64,000 nucleotides of DNA from an uncultured Leptolyngbyaceae cyanobacterium (GTDB lineage: Bacteria; Cyanobacteriota; Cyanobacteriia; Leptolyngbyales; Leptolyngbyaceae), in the NCBI GenBank assembly GCA_938023035.1, contig CALIDI010000027.1, positions 1 through 64,000 on the forward strand, in the 5' to 3' direction. The notes below the pieces were generated by a model. It was given only the letters and a program-made list of their open reading frames with translations. It searched no databases and was not told the origin of the DNA. The translations under genes and the position numbers were made by a program. Below, in pieces: positions 4,518 to 23,472 of the stretch. The first letter of the stretch is position 1; the number at the start of each line of letters is the position of its first letter.

Positions 4518-5198
4518 ATGTCTACTGTTGCCAATTTTGACCTGGCCCCCCTGATTGATCACTCCCTGCTGTATCCAACCGCAACTCCTGAGCAAGTGGC
4601 CCAGTGGTGCGAAGAAGCAGATCGGTTTCATTTTGCCACCGTCTGCATTCAACCCGCCTATGTGCGGCAGGCTGTTGAATTGCTGCACAATCGCAAGCCT
4701 AAAGTGTGTACTGTGATTGGGTTTCCCTATGGGGCTACGACCCCTGCCACCAAACTCTATGAGGCCCAGGAAGCCACAGAAAACGGCGCGGCTGAGTTAG
4801 ATGTCGTGATCAACATTGGCTGGCTCAAAGCTGGCAACGTCGATGCCGTGCATCAAGAAATCGCTGAAATTCGAGAAGCTACAGGCCAAGTGGTCAAAGC
4901 GATCCTAGAAATGGCTCTTTTAACAGAGGCAGAAAAACGCCTTGCAGCCGAAATCTGTATGGATGCTGGGGTCAGCTTTTTGAAAACCAGTACGGGCTTG
5001 TTTGGCGGCGCAACCGTTGCGGATGTTCGCCTGCTGAAGGAAATTGCTAAAGATCGGGTGGGCATTAAAGCGTCTGGTGGCATTCGCACGGCAGCCCAAG
5101 CGGTAGAACTGGTGCTGGCAGGTGCCACACGGCTGGGCACCTCGCGCGGAGTCGAGCTGCTGCGCGAGCGGGAGCAATTGGCAGAGATTGGGCCATAG
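4518..5198 (+). CDS. deoC: Deoxyribose-phosphate aldolase
   Basis: DeoC cleaves 2-deoxyribose-5-phosphate to acetaldehyde and glyceraldehyde-3-phosphate in nucleoside salvage; cytoplasmic TIM barrel. The 226 residues carry the N-terminal LIDHSLLYP, the [15 protein letters not shown] strand with the catalytic Asp, FLKTSTGL, and the Schiff-base lysine in [10 protein letters not shown]. Length is normal for bacterial DeoC. The ATG at 4518 is used because the longer frame starts with a TTG and adds 16 unrelated residues. recO follows 74 bp downstream in the same direction, a common cyanobacterial pairing, so they may be co-transcribed. Confidence 0.93.
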
Positions 5199-17705: not shown

Positions 17706-19538
17706 ATGACCCCTCCCCCCCGCAGCTTTGCTGCCTCCTCTCGCCCACATAACTTGCTGCCACGGCCAACAGCCAAGCCATTGCCCCTGCGTAGGGAGCC
17801 GCGTAAACAGGCTTCCTACGCTGCCATCGTGGAGCCGACGGTTAACCGCTTACTATTGGTTTGGGGAATATTGGTCGGTGGTCTAGGATTACTGGCAATT
17901 AATCTATTTTATGTGCAAGTACGCCAGGGGGCAGTGTTAAAAGAGTTAGCACGCCAACAGCAACAAATATTTTTGCGCCCCTTCGTACCACGGCGGCACA
18001 TTGTTGATCGGACTGGCACAGCAGTCGCGCTCGATCGCCCGGTTTACAGCCTATTCGTTCATCCTAAGTTATTTAAAGAACCCAAAGAAGACGTTGCTGC
18101 CAAGCTTGCGCCTATCTTAAATCGGCCCGTCCCTGAACTGGTCAAAGCATTCAATGAGCGCAAAAGTGGCATTCGGCTCGAGCACGCTATGGCTGAGGAT
18201 GTTGCTGAGCGAATTCAGAACCTCCAGCTAGATGGGTTAGAACGCATTCAATACCAGCAACGGTTTTACCCCCAGCGGGATGTTCTCGCCACGATTGTGG
18301 GTTATACCAATATGGATCACCGGGGCCAAGCTGGGATTGAATTAAGTCAGCAAAAACTACTGGAGCGGGAAGTAAAAGCCCTGCGGTTGACTCGTATGGG
18401 AGATGGTTCCCTTATGCCAGACCAAGTGCCGGGTGGTTTTTTGAATGTAGACGACTTGCAATTACGCCTAACTGTAGATACGCGGCTTCAGCGGGTTGCC
18501 CTGGCTGCCCTACGTCAACAAGTTAAGCAATTTCAGGCAAAACGGGGCGGAGTAATTGTCATGGATGTTCGCAATGGGGCGATTCTTGCCATGGCCGCTG
18601 AACCATCCTATGACCCTAACCAGTATTTCTCTGTACCGATTGAGCGATTTAAAAACTGGCTATTAAGTGACCTATATGAGCCTGGCTCGACCTTTAAGCC
18701 AATTACCGTAGCGATCGCCCTAGAAGCAAAGGCAATTAAGCCTGACAGTACCTTCAATGATGCAGGGAGCATTACCGTAGATGGACACCAGATCGGTAAT
18801 GCCTATCGTAGTAATCACGGGCGCATGAGCCTCACCGACATCGTTCAGTACTCTAGCAACATTGGCATGGTGCGCATTGCCCAGCAAATGAAATCCACCG
18901 ACTACTATGACTGGCTCAAGAAAGTGGGTCTAGGTAGCCCCGTTGGCATTGACCTGCCGGGGGAAATCGGGGGGCAGTTTAAGCCGAAGGAAGTCTTTAC
19001 CCAATCGCGGATTGAGCCAGCCGTAACGGCGTTTGGGCAAGGTTTCTCCCTTACACCTTTACAACTAGTGCAACTCCATGCCGCCCTAGCCAATGGCGGC
19101 AAACTGGTAACCCCGCATTTGGTGGATGGCCTGTATGATAGCCAGGGCAACCTCTACTGGCAACCAAACCGGCGACCGCCCCAGACCGTATTCTCCGCTG
19201 AAACCACCAAAACAGTGCTACCCATGATGGAGGCAGCCGTCAAAACCGGCACCGGTAAGAATGCCCAAATTCCCAACTATCGGATTGCGGGTAAAACCGG
19301 CACAGCCCAAAAAGCCGTGGCTGGCGGCTACTCGAAAACAGCCAAGATTACTAGTTTTGTTGGTATCTTACCCGCCGATAATCCGCGCTATGTCGTGCTT
19401 GCTGTGGTAGATGAACCCAAGGGAGGAACCTCCGCTGCTGGTTCAACCGTCGCAGCTCCAATTGTAAAGACGGTAATGGAGTCTCTCATTACTTTGGATC
19501 AGATTCCTCCCAGCACGGCTAATCACCTGTCCAACTAA
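17706..19538 (+). CDS. ftsI: Penicillin-binding protein FtsI (class B, septal)
   Basis: A 610-residue class B transpeptidase for septal peptidoglycan. An N-terminal membrane anchor (LLLVWGILVGGLGLLAINLFYV) precedes the pedestal domain (RHIVDRTGTAVA). The transpeptidase motifs are Ser328-x-x-Lys331 (GSTFKP), Ser383-Ser384-Asn385 (YSSNIG) and Lys530-Thr-Gly (AGKTGTAQ), all intact. It sits in the inner membrane facing the periplasm. The ATG at 17706 is used because the alternative TTG at 17694 overlaps the previous gene. It forms a pair with the FtsL-like gene. Confidence 0.93.
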   Translation: MTPPPRSFAASSRPHNLLPRPTAKPLPLRREPRKQASYAAIVEPTVNRLLLVWGILVGGLGLLAINLFYVQVRQGAVLKELARQQQQIFLRPFVPRRHIVDRTGTAVALDRPVYSLFVHPKLFKEPKEDVAAKLAPILNRPVPELVKAFNERKSGIRLEHAMAEDVAERIQNLQLDGLERIQYQQRFYPQRDVLATIVGYTNMDHRGQAGIELSQQKLLEREVKALRLTRMGDGSLMPDQVPGGFLNVDDLQLRLTVDTRLQRVALAALRQQVKQFQAKRGGVIVMDVRNGAILAMAAEPSYDPNQYFSVPIERFKNWLLSDLYEPGSTFKPITVAIALEAKAIKPDSTFNDAGSITVDGHQIGNAYRSNHGRMSLTDIVQYSSNIGMVRIAQQMKSTDYYDWLKKVGLGSPVGIDLPGEIGGQFKPKEVFTQSRIEPAVTAFGQGFSLTPLQLVQLHAALANGGKLVTPHLVDGLYDSQGNLYWQPNRRPPQTVFSAETTKTVLPMMEAAVKTGTGKNAQIPNYRIAGKTGTAQKAVAGGYSKTAKITSFVGILPADNPRYVVLAVVDEPKGGTSAAGSTVAAPIVKTVMESLITLDQIPPSTANHLSN

Positions 19539-19687
19539 AATGACTGTAGGCAGTTTAGCTTGTCTGCCACAAGTAATCCTTACCGCTGACAAATAGCCTC
19601 TCAGCGGTTCGGTGCAGCGTGTTTATACCATGATTCTCTTGCAGATAGGCTTCGCCAAGGCTTACTCAATCCAGGGCTTGATCAACA

Positions 19688-20380
19688 TTATTTTTCGTTA
19701 TCAATGCTTGCAGCTTTTTGGATATGTGGCATTTGAGCATCTAAGCAGCGTTGCACGATCGCATCTATCTCCAAACCAACAATGCTTTGCTCTTGTAGCA
19801 ATGGGTTGGTAGAGCTAACAAAGGTAACCACGGATTTTCCTGCCGAAATCAGGCGTTGGGTAAAGGCTAGGGTTTTACTGTTGGGGGAAGCGTAGGCAAT
19901 AAAGATAGTGTGGGCGATCGCCCCAATCATGGCATTCCGTTTGCCCGCTAGTTCAGTCGTACTGTGAGAATAGCTGGCGCTAAAGGGCGACAGTAGCAGC
20001 AGGCGACCTTCGCCGATCGCCTGTTTTTGTTCTGAAGAAAGGCGCATTTTATGGAGACTGCGGGCAGGGCAATGGATGATTGGTTGGGGGCCGTGCAGTA
20101 AAATTTTGAGGCAGTCTTGTTCGATTGGGGTGTGAAAACCCCCAATAACGGGGATTTCTGCATCTCGTAAAACCTGTGCCAAATCGTAGGTTTTGAGGAT
20201 GAGGTCGCCAAGACATTGCTTAGAGCAAAAGAGTGCGATCGCCGGTTTTTGCAACAGACCGACATCACCAATCGTATACAGAGTAGGAGCCGACTTGAAC
20301 GCCCAACTTGTTTTCAGTGAAGTCGGATAGATCAAGTCTTCAGGGATTATGCTTCCCAAATCAGGCGTAGGAGCAGTCAT
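19688..20380 (-). CDS. DprA/Smf-like Rossmann protein
   Basis: A 230-residue protein resembling the Rossmann core of DprA/Smf DNA-processing proteins. Visible elements are TLYTIGDVGLLQKPAIALFCS, a central GRLLLLSPFSAS, RNAMIGAIAHTIFIAYAS (compare the NRxIAGLS motif of DprA) and LISAGKSVVTF. It lacks the N-terminal SAM and C-terminal winged-helix domains of full DprA and is shorter, so it may be a divergent paralogue in the SLOG/lysine-decarboxylase-like superfamily. DNA binding is not certain. The start at 20380 (MTAPTPD) is used. It is convergent with ftsI. Confidence 0.65.
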   Translation of the reverse strand: MTAPTPDLGSIIPEDLIYPTSLKTSWAFKSAPTLYTIGDVGLLQKPAIALFCSKQCLGDLILKTYDLAQVLRDAEIPVIGGFHTPIEQDCLKILLHGPQPIIHCPARSLHKMRLSSEQKQAIGEGRLLLLSPFSASYSHSTTELAGKRNAMIGAIAHTIFIAYASPNSKTLAFTQRLISAGKSVVTFVSSTNPLLQEQSIVGLEIDAIVQRCLDAQMPHIQKAASIDNEK

Positions 20381-20468
20381 AGCCAATTTATGATCTCTGC
20401 AAATGGGTTGCCCTCATTTTTCAACAGTGAACCCCCAAAAAACTCTAGTGTTGGGCGCAATACAGATA

Positions 20469-20796
20469 TTAAATCTCTCCGAGAAAGATGAGTGGTTTCA
20501 GATAATTCAATAAGTTAGGTAGGTTTTCATTAACCACTGTTCACCCTTCATCAGGATCGACTGCATTATAATCATGGGTAATGACATCACGCATTCCAGC
20601 AATTTCTTCTCAGGGAATGGTGGAATATTGTTCTCTAAAGTTTTTTGGTTGCTTTGCCAATGATGGTAATGCAGCACAAAATTGCATCTTGTTTTTTGAT
20701 GTTGGCTGCCAGGTTATCAAAATCACTGCCTTCAACATAGCGAAGAATGAGTTTGATGGCTTCTACAATCTTGATTAAGGCTTCTTGATCGTGCAA
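20469..20796 (-). pseudogene. Decayed HepT-family (DUF86) RNase toxin
   Basis: Minus-strand translation gives HDQEALIKIVEAIKLILRY, then DAILCCITIIGKATKKL and a stop; after a one-base shift it continues REQYSTIP-stop-EEIAGMRDVITHDY, a third stop, then NENLPNLLNYLKPLI. The order matches HepT: N-terminal helix, the IIGxAxKxL block, and the RNase motif Arg-x4-His-x-Tyr (RDVITHDY), which is intact. The second stop replaces the Trp of the usual IPW. One frameshift and three premature stops make it non-functional. Confidence 0.75.
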
Positions 20797-20799
20797 TAC

Positions 20800-20922
20800 A
20801 GATCACTTTGGCAGAATCTAAAATATTCTTACGCCTCAACCAGTTATGACTTTTTTCGATGGCTTTTTTGCTGACACCAAATCAGCGTCACGATGCAGCA
20901 TAGCTGAAAGTTCTTCTTGCAT
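20800..20922 (-). pseudogene. MntA-like nucleotidyltransferase antitoxin remnant
   Basis: Directly upstream of the HepT remnant on the minus strand, the frames read MQEELSAMLHRDADLVSAKK and, after a one-base shift, KAIEKSHNWLRRKNILDSAK. The ELSxMLxRDxDLV stretch and the following helix fit the C-terminal half of the minimal nucleotidyltransferases (MntA) paired with HepT. The N-terminal GSFARG-type active site is missing. Confidence 0.6.
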
Positions 20923-21024
20923 CCTGATTTTTTAATCATGCAACAAAGCCATTAATTGCGCCTAACTACTTCCCCGACCAGTTTATTCATTCCCATGCTG
21001 TTGGGGGCGCTGATGCTGAGTGCA

Positions 21025-21133
21025 TGTCACTCTTGCCCTCACCCAATTTGGGAGAGGGACTTTGAGATGGCTCGGCCCCTCTTCTCCCCGGTTGGAAGAA
21101 GGGGCTGGGGGATGAGGGCCTGCAAAGGTGACA
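21025..21133. repeat. Palindromic repeat element, family B
   Basis: A 109-bp element whose ends are inverted copies: TGTCACTCTTGCCCTCA at the left and TGAGGGCCTGCAAAGGTGACA-like sequence at the right (ends 21133). The interior holds GACTTTGAGATGGCTCGGC. The same interior and left end recur at 49418-49540, and the right end (inverted) at about 33265-33290. It lies between the HepT relic and the secreted TPR gene. Confidence 0.6.
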
Positions 21134-21249
21134 TATTCTCCTGATGCTTTTGTTAGACTCCTCCATTACGCCTTGGCATAATCCTTGCGGAAAGTGCGCT
21201 GGCAGGGGTGTAGAGGGTAATGTATTGCCTCGACCAAGGGCTGTTGGTC

Positions 21250-23472
21250 ATGGTTTGGAAGAAGGGCTGTGCTGCTGGGGTTCTGGGTAGTTTACTCTTG
21301 GGGCTAGTGTCTGGGGTGCAAATTCCTTTCACGGCGATCGCAGCGCCGGCAACCACAACCGAGTCGGCAGATGCCTCAGGCGCTGAATGTACAGAACAGC
21401 GGGGGCAAATCCTAGAGCGTCTGGTGCGAGAGCTAATCTATCGCAGCCACCATTACGTCAACACCGGGCAGTTTGACCAGGCGGCCCGTGTTCTGGGGCA
21501 GGCGACCACTATGGTGACAGTGATTGCAGACCCCTTCGCTAAGACAGATATGGTGGCAAACCTGGCGGGTATTTCCGGCGGGCAGCCGAGCGCAATAGAG
21601 CAAATTGTGGGCCATGGCATTGCGGCTAAGCAGTTCGACCGGGCTTTGTTTCTACTACGACAGATTACGGACGCTAGCCAGACTCTAGAGGGTGAGTATG
21701 GGGTCGTCAATAGCCAGCGGGCGATTTTAATTCGGTTAGGTCACTACTACAACCAATTGAATCAACCGGATCAGGCGCGCTTGCACTTTGATCAGGCTCG
21801 ATCGCGGCTGCGTTTGCTGCGGGGGGATGGATTTGGCCTGATTTCAGCCCCTGTGGCGGAGGGTTATTTGAGCCTGGGGGATCGCCAAACCGCGATCGCG
21901 ATTTTGGATGAAGCCTGGCAATACACTCAGACCATGACCACCCAGGATCCGGAGTATTTAGCCAGCATTTTCAGTACAATCGCCACCACCTATGCAAAGG
22001 CGGGTGCCACCCTGCAGGCTCTGAAAATAGCCGAACAAATTCCAGTGCCGGGGGTTAAGGCGCTTACCCTGGTGACAGTCGCCCAGGCTCTGGCCACGCC
22101 GGCTTCTGGGGAGTCAGTTCCTAGGGAGGCCATCGAGCGGTTACTAACCCAGGTCGGGGATATGGCGCGTGCGCTGCCCAAACCCACCCGTGCTCAGGTA
22201 GGGGGCCGATTGGCTGTGGTCTACGCGCGTCTGGGCCGATGGCAGAGGGCAATGCAATGGGTCGATGCGATTGCCACGCCAAAAACCAAAATTCAAACCC
22301 TAGCAGAACTGGCAACAATGGGGGCTGAGCCATCTGAAAGGGCTAATCGCTTGCTCAATCGCCTGGTCAAAACCGCCCAAACAATCGAGCCTTTCTACGA
22401 GAGCGATACCCACCTTCGCCAGATCGCAGGCCGCTATTTGGCGAATTACCAGTTTCGGCTAGCCCTGCAACTGGCGACCCAACTCGATGCCACGCTGCGG
22501 TCAGAACTCTTGTTATCGCTCATTCAAGCTGCCAGTACCGCCGGGGACTTTGCCATCGCTCAGCAAGCCCTTGCGGCTTTAGAACCCGGTTGGGAAAACC
22601 AGAGCCGCTCTCTGGGGCTGCGGGCGATCGCCCTTGGCTATCTCCACAACGGTCAGGTTGGTCAGGCAATTCAACAACTGCCTCAGATCATAGACGCGCG
22701 CGATTACCCCAGTCAGGTTTTGACCCGTCTCGCGATCGCCTGGTTCTACCGACAAAATGGACAGTTGGCGCAGGCGCTAGAACAGCTCAACCAGGCCCAC
22801 AGATCCTTAACCAAGCTGGAAGATACTTCTGCCAAGCTAGAAGCCCTGGGGCAAATTGCTTTGCAATTGGAACAACTGGGGCAATCGGAGCAAGCCAGGG
22901 CTACCCAGTCGCAGGCCCTCAAAATTGCTCAAACCCTTCACCCCTCTGATGGCATAGAGTCACTAGTACGCCAATACTTGGCCGACAATGATGCTCTGGC
23001 CCTCCAGTTCATCCAATCCCTGGCCCCCTCTGCCAATCGTGATCGGCTGCTGCAGATAGCAGTGCAACAGTTACTAGAAACAGGTAGGATCGAGGCGGTA
23101 GCCCAGGCCAGCGATGACATTCAAGATCCTTATCAAAGGGTGGCCATCGGGGTAACCCTCTCTGACTATTTCAGGGCGTTGGGGCAACAGCAGACTGCTG
23201 CTGACTACTTGGCGCGATCTTTAGCGATCGCCCAGGCTTTACCAGGGCCAGATGAAGTCAGTTTTGCCGACGCCGCCCAACACGATCCCTCAATCCCGCA
23301 ACACGACCCCCTTGATCGCGGCACTCTGCTTGCAGCCATTGCCGTTCGTTATGCCGATATCGGACAACCCGCAGCCGCTCAAAAAGCCGTGCAGGCTCTG
23401 CAACAGCCGAAGGATCAACAGCACCTGCAACAACAACTCAAGTGCTATAAACCAACAAACGCAAAGTCCTAG
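21250..23472 (+). CDS. Secreted TPR-repeat protein of unknown function
   Basis: A 740-residue protein with a signal peptide (MVWKKG, then GVLGSLLLGLVSGVQIP and an AIAAPA cleavage-like site). The rest is built of helical repeats resembling TPRs, e.g. YNQLNQPDQARLHFDQA, YLSLGDRQTAIAILDEA, YARLGRWQRAMQWVDAI and YRQNGQLAQALEQLNQA. It is probably periplasmic and a protein-binding scaffold. No enzyme domain is seen. An upstream in-frame ATG at 21220 has a GAGGG site 2 bp before it; the ATG at 21250 gives the cleaner signal peptide. Neighbours give no functional clue. Confidence 0.7.
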   Translation: MVWKKGCAAGVLGSLLLGLVSGVQIPFTAIAAPATTTESADASGAECTEQRGQILERLVRELIYRSHHYVNTGQFDQAARVLGQATTMVTVIADPFAKTDMVANLAGISGGQPSAIEQIVGHGIAAKQFDRALFLLRQITDASQTLEGEYGVVNSQRAILIRLGHYYNQLNQPDQARLHFDQARSRLRLLRGDGFGLISAPVAEGYLSLGDRQTAIAILDEAWQYTQTMTTQDPEYLASIFSTIATTYAKAGATLQALKIAEQIPVPGVKALTLVTVAQALATPASGESVPREAIERLLTQVGDMARALPKPTRAQVGGRLAVVYARLGRWQRAMQWVDAIATPKTKIQTLAELATMGAEPSERANRLLNRLVKTAQTIEPFYESDTHLRQIAGRYLANYQFRLALQLATQLDATLRSELLLSLIQAASTAGDFAIAQQALAALEPGWENQSRSLGLRAIALGYLHNGQVGQAIQQLPQIIDARDYPSQVLTRLAIAWFYRQNGQLAQALEQLNQAHRSLTKLEDTSAKLEALGQIALQLEQLGQSEQARATQSQALKIAQTLHPSDGIESLVRQYLADNDALALQFIQSLAPSANRDRLLQIAVQQLLETGRIEAVAQASDDIQDPYQRVAIGVTLSDYFRALGQQQTAADYLARSLAIAQALPGPDEVSFADAAQHDPSIPQHDPLDRGTLLAAIAVRYADIGQPAAAQKAVQALQQPKDQQHLQQQLKCYKPTNAKS

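Follow-up and report, generated by a model that had tools for sequence, protein, structure and literature searches.

The minus strand at positions 20469–20933 almost certainly carries a dead type VII toxin-antitoxin locus that descends from an MntA-HepT pair. It lies in a 64,000-nucleotide stretch of a Leptolyngbyaceae contig (the window, by which we mean the whole stretch that was analysed), from a genome of 4.75 Mb in 62 contigs. Together with a transposon end, the remnant pair occupies 20469–20950, between a DprA-like gene on the minus strand (19688–20386, PF02481) and a TPR protein gene on the plus strand (21220–23472). The preliminary description had read the minus-strand frames of 20469–20922, with their shifts and stops, as HepT and the end of MntA. 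The PF01934 match and the MntA residue matches bear this reading out and the locus had been placed correctly, but about ten MntA bases and the transposon scar were left out, and the real end is at 20950. That scar and a second nonsense change in HepT are the new elements. As for the neighbourhood, the DprA-like protein has a match in one of the 28 relatives searched (G023, 75%), and its 27 bits fall far under the 191-bit NCBIfam dprA cut-off.

According to PMC7641770, the RNase toxicity of HepT is neutralised by AMPylation, which MntA carries out on the Tyr of the RX4HXY motif; this motif of HepT and the GSX10DXD motif of MntA are defined there. A scan of one genome per species supplied relatives for comparison, the best 80 of 475 loci; further relatives came from a second set of genomes. 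Among the matches listed, the nearest intact relative is a pair from Petrachloros mirabilis ULC683 (L055), with 79.6% DNA identity in a 500-column alignment; the next by DNA among these matches are L054 (75.6%), L067 (78% over 376) and, from the second set, L006 (82% over 232). In the Petrachloros pair, MntA (112 aa) and HepT (113 aa) overlap by 11 bases, and the similarity continues to the end of HepT and about 20 bases beyond. Both proteins match their Pfam families. At 42.8 and 44.7 bits, they stay below the NCBIfam equivalog cut-offs of 60 bits, which places this cyanobacterial branch away from the source branches of the models. Within 3 kb of the first pair, Petrachloros carries a second MntA/HepT pair (L055, 3616–4279) and a third MntA piece (5025–5156, the first 44 aa) that is 93% identical to the L006 MntA. 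L006 itself (1501–1925, genome G015) has an open MntA beside a HepT that matches for about 34 residues only.

The HepT pseudogene extends over 20469–20799 on the minus strand, as seen from the PF01934 match, the frames and the alignment with the intact Petrachloros HepT. PF01934 (HepT-like) is matched at 20496–20645 with 39.6 bits (cut-off 23.5) across two TGA codons, and at 20626–20766 with 22.1 bits across one TAG; joined with X at the stops, the pieces reach 60 bits. BLAST of the Petrachloros HepT against the 501-bp stretch gave 82.4 and 73.6 bits. Out of 1000 single-base shuffles of the same stretch, 93 gave any BLAST match, the best at 20.0 bits.

Several lesions interrupt this gene. The ATG is lost (the homologous triplet is 20797–20799), and an 11-bp deletion, whose approximate junction at 20643–20646 follows from alignment gaps against L055, L054, L051, L053 and L067, shifts the frame. 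The stop that had been described as an inactivating replacement of the Trp of IPW is present as a TGG to TGA change at 20610–20612. A second TGG to TGA change, at 20541–20543, hits a later conserved Trp (EVWTV in relatives). RDVITHDY, already recognised in the preliminary description as the RNase motif, is found at 20568–20591 and corresponds to the RX4HXY motif (RNase/AMP-acceptor); since it lies between the two stops, an open frame carrying it is impossible, and it exists at the level of DNA only. The gene has retained its own TAA, at 20469. The lesions are the same when L054, L051 and L053 are used for comparison, and also with L067 as far as that sequence reaches. Recoding of TGA was considered and ruled out, because it leaves the frameshifts and the missing half of MntA unexplained. 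L053 (Tildeniella; identical in locus to L017) and, in the second set, L033 (genome G006) show the same Trp to TGA change, which we read as repeated loss at a codon that a single step turns into a stop, and not as a signal.

Upstream of HepT, the C-terminal part of MntA (codons about 66–112) aligns at 20789–20933 on the minus strand, so that the antitoxin end proposed earlier is indeed there, with a broken frame. Residues 66–89 are found at 20863–20934 (75% identity) and residues 84–112 at 20792–20878 (79% identity), and a 2-bp insertion at 20875–20878 causes a frameshift. The stop codon is changed, and the remnant overlaps the start of HepT as in intact pairs; this order, with an overlapping antitoxin upstream, is that of L055 and L018/L051. 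The N-terminus of MntA, the half that bears GSX10DXD, is absent at the locus, and elsewhere in the genome its sole match has 31% identity. With frameshifts and stops in both genes, a working toxin or antitoxin from this locus is impossible.

The MntA remnant breaks off at the end of a transposon. The sequence from 20950 to 20927 on the minus strand, GGCTTTGTTGCATGATTAAAAAAT, matches one end of an IS5-family element in L011 at 24 of 24 bases. GGCTTTGTTGCATGA stands at either end of this element, which measures 1063 bp, has inverted ends of 15 bp and is flanked by a target repeat of 9 bp, ATTTCTACT; its transposase belongs to the IS5 family (NF033579, 323 bits). From the 9-bp target repeat and the GGCTTTGTTG ends, we take elements of this type to be IS903-like. 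The same kind of element end is found in L012 and L016, and diverged pieces of related IS elements are present elsewhere in the genome. At the locus itself neither a transposase nor a second end was found; the terminus alone matches, and GGCTTTGTTGCA occurs once in the window. A dispersed repeat of about 105 bp (21036–21140), of which the genome has 39 or more additional copies at 79–91% identity (40 of 264 candidates scored), was rejected as part of the break, being a separate family that has no contact with it.

The match to MntA begins at a single base, 20933, whether L055, L054, L067 or L006 is compared, and it overlaps the IS match by the 7 bp AAAAAAT (20927–20933). Because the two matches share these bases, a deletion from the IS into MntA at a 7-bp microhomology is likely and would be the simplest history, although the shortness of the IS match (24–28 bases) and the absence of the IS body count against it. 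The transposon might instead have landed inside MntA, and an IS5-family end at the break would fit this as well. However, after an insertion alone MntA would remain outward of the IS end, and here the outer side is devoid of MntA sequence, with MntA attached directly to the inner side. Such a sign might be hidden by a later rearrangement, and we regard an insertion as possible but rather unlikely. The ancestor was an MntA-HepT operon in which MntA would have AMPylated the Tyr of RX4HXY in the HepT RNase. Nonsense changes and the 11-bp deletion destroyed the toxin. Before or after this loss, an IS5-family element beside mntA probably recombined with mntA through AAAAAAT, which would have removed the IS body and the first ~65 mntA codons. 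The comparisons show the homology, the lesions, the transposon end at the break and the relaxed evolution; the order of events, the deletion mechanism and an arrival by horizontal transfer are steps that we infer from them.

The substitutions on the remnant were assigned to branches with L054 as outgroup and counted by codon position (1:2:3). The window branch has 5:1:4 changes in MntA and 17:10:23 in HepT, in sum 22:11:27, and all differences between L055 and L054 amount to 12:8:45. Positions 1 and 2 against position 3 thus give 33:27 versus 20:45 (Fisher p 0.007), a comparison of one branch with one pair, which differ in kind, so that we use it as supporting evidence only. The deviation from the neutral two thirds is not significant for the window branch (p 0.07) and is significant for L055/L054 (p 6e-9); the contrast is weakened by the L055 branch of HepT, which has few changes and no third-position skew (4:4:3). 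On the window branch, position 2 still has the fewest changes, and part of this branch was therefore probably under selection before the decay. Taken as support, the counts suggest that the window branch evolved as a gene without constraint, with relaxed positions 1 and 2.

These data also bear on the idea of an active pair that merely appears broken through errors in sequencing or assembly. The assembly is in 62 contigs, and individual single-base errors are possible. However, within about 470 bases errors would have to explain the loss of the HepT start and of the MntA stop, two nonsense changes, 2 bp inserted and 11 bp deleted, and also about 65 MntA codons replaced by unrelated sequence at the IS end, while both neighbouring frames are open. 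The relaxed codon-position pattern disfavours sequencing error further, and we give this explanation practically no chance. A functional remnant, for instance a regulatory RNA or a short piece of HepT interfering with other HEPN toxins, also seems very improbable. A 53-aa frame (TTG start, 20635–20796) does correspond to the N-terminal half of HepT, but this fragment is without RX4HXY, the substitutions are relaxed, the genome offers no second PF01934 copy as a target, and no RNA gene was matched by Rfam in 19500–22000. The locus is thus best described as an ordinary toxin-antitoxin pseudogene pair of a common family, a reading that is well supported.

It had been proposed that the module was acquired and then lost. 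The loss is well supported by lesions in both genes. The scattered distribution, in turn, agrees with an acquisition by transfer without proving it: the nearest relatives belong to other genera, for example Petrachloros (Petrachlorosaceae in the NCBI taxonomy), and the best HepT match in the one genome of the same genus that was searched (G001) has 50% protein identity. This would suit a mobile module, as which the MntA-HepT family is described in PMC2701414. The check for intact copies elsewhere that accompanied the proposal turned up no other HepT of the PF01934 family in the 4.75-Mb genome. On contig C13 of this genome (G000; L003, 1381–2254), open frames encode another kind of overlapping pair: a nucleotidyltransferase that has GSX10DXD, and a HepT-like_2 protein (PF20797). 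The latter has the motif RHVVRNVY, with Asn at the usual His; among the 16 copies read of 19 matches, its own included, this position is His in 11, Asn in 4 and Ser in 1. A search for the DprA-like and TPR proteins in 29 genomes, including the one studied here, revealed no shared site, and consequently an empty site is unreadable. The TPR protein has two matches elsewhere, in G019 and in G001, where its halves are on separate contigs. As to the vehicle, no match was found among 72,556 plasmid records, and phage matches were limited to four records at no more than 41% protein identity.

The related loci offer a hint on the order of decay. Among the best 80 of 475 loci, HepT is broken in 10, by an in-frame stop in eight (L053, L065, L080, L082, L086, L104, L120, L129), a frameshift in L062 and a truncation in L067. 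In the same set, a stop interrupts the upstream MntA in one of 79 readable cases (L104), L065 lying at a contig end. The difference gives a Fisher p of 0.009, unpaired and without regard to the tree. Since many of the records are MAGs, some of the stops may be errors; on the other hand, HepT peptides served as seeds for the scan, a choice that makes broken HepT harder to find. Counted as unbroken were seven MntAs without the exact GSX10DXD spacing (L066, L076, L077, L079, L103, L111, L114) and a short, divergent one (L116), and likewise four HepTs with a substituted motif in an open frame (L081, L096, L110, L126). In six of the former (L066, L076, L077, L079, L103, L111) the GS...DXD spacing exceeds the X10 of the family. 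Relatives with an open MntA beside a ruined HepT do exist. We therefore put forward, as a tentative and at present rather doubtful idea, that the toxin dies before the antitoxin, that an orphan MntA is kept to disarm related HepTs (anti-addiction), and that the locus described here is a late stage in which the antitoxin is gone too. The locus alone matters little, being a single case in which a very common mobile module was lost; the side count suggests a decay order for addiction modules that can be tested, and the locus shows clearly how a toxin-antitoxin gene can break off at the end of a transposon.

Compared with known systems, the transposon piece resembles an IS5-family IS in its 24 identical terminal bases at the break and differs from one in that the end stands alone, without a transposase. 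The pair itself resembles the MntA/HepT (HEPN/MNT) type VII system, which combines PF01909 or PF18765 with PF01934, in having two small overlapping genes with MNT first, a HEPN domain with RX4HXY and DNA about 80% identical to that of an intact pair from a cyanobacterium. It departs from that system in that both genes are broken and the GSX10DXD half of MntA is missing.
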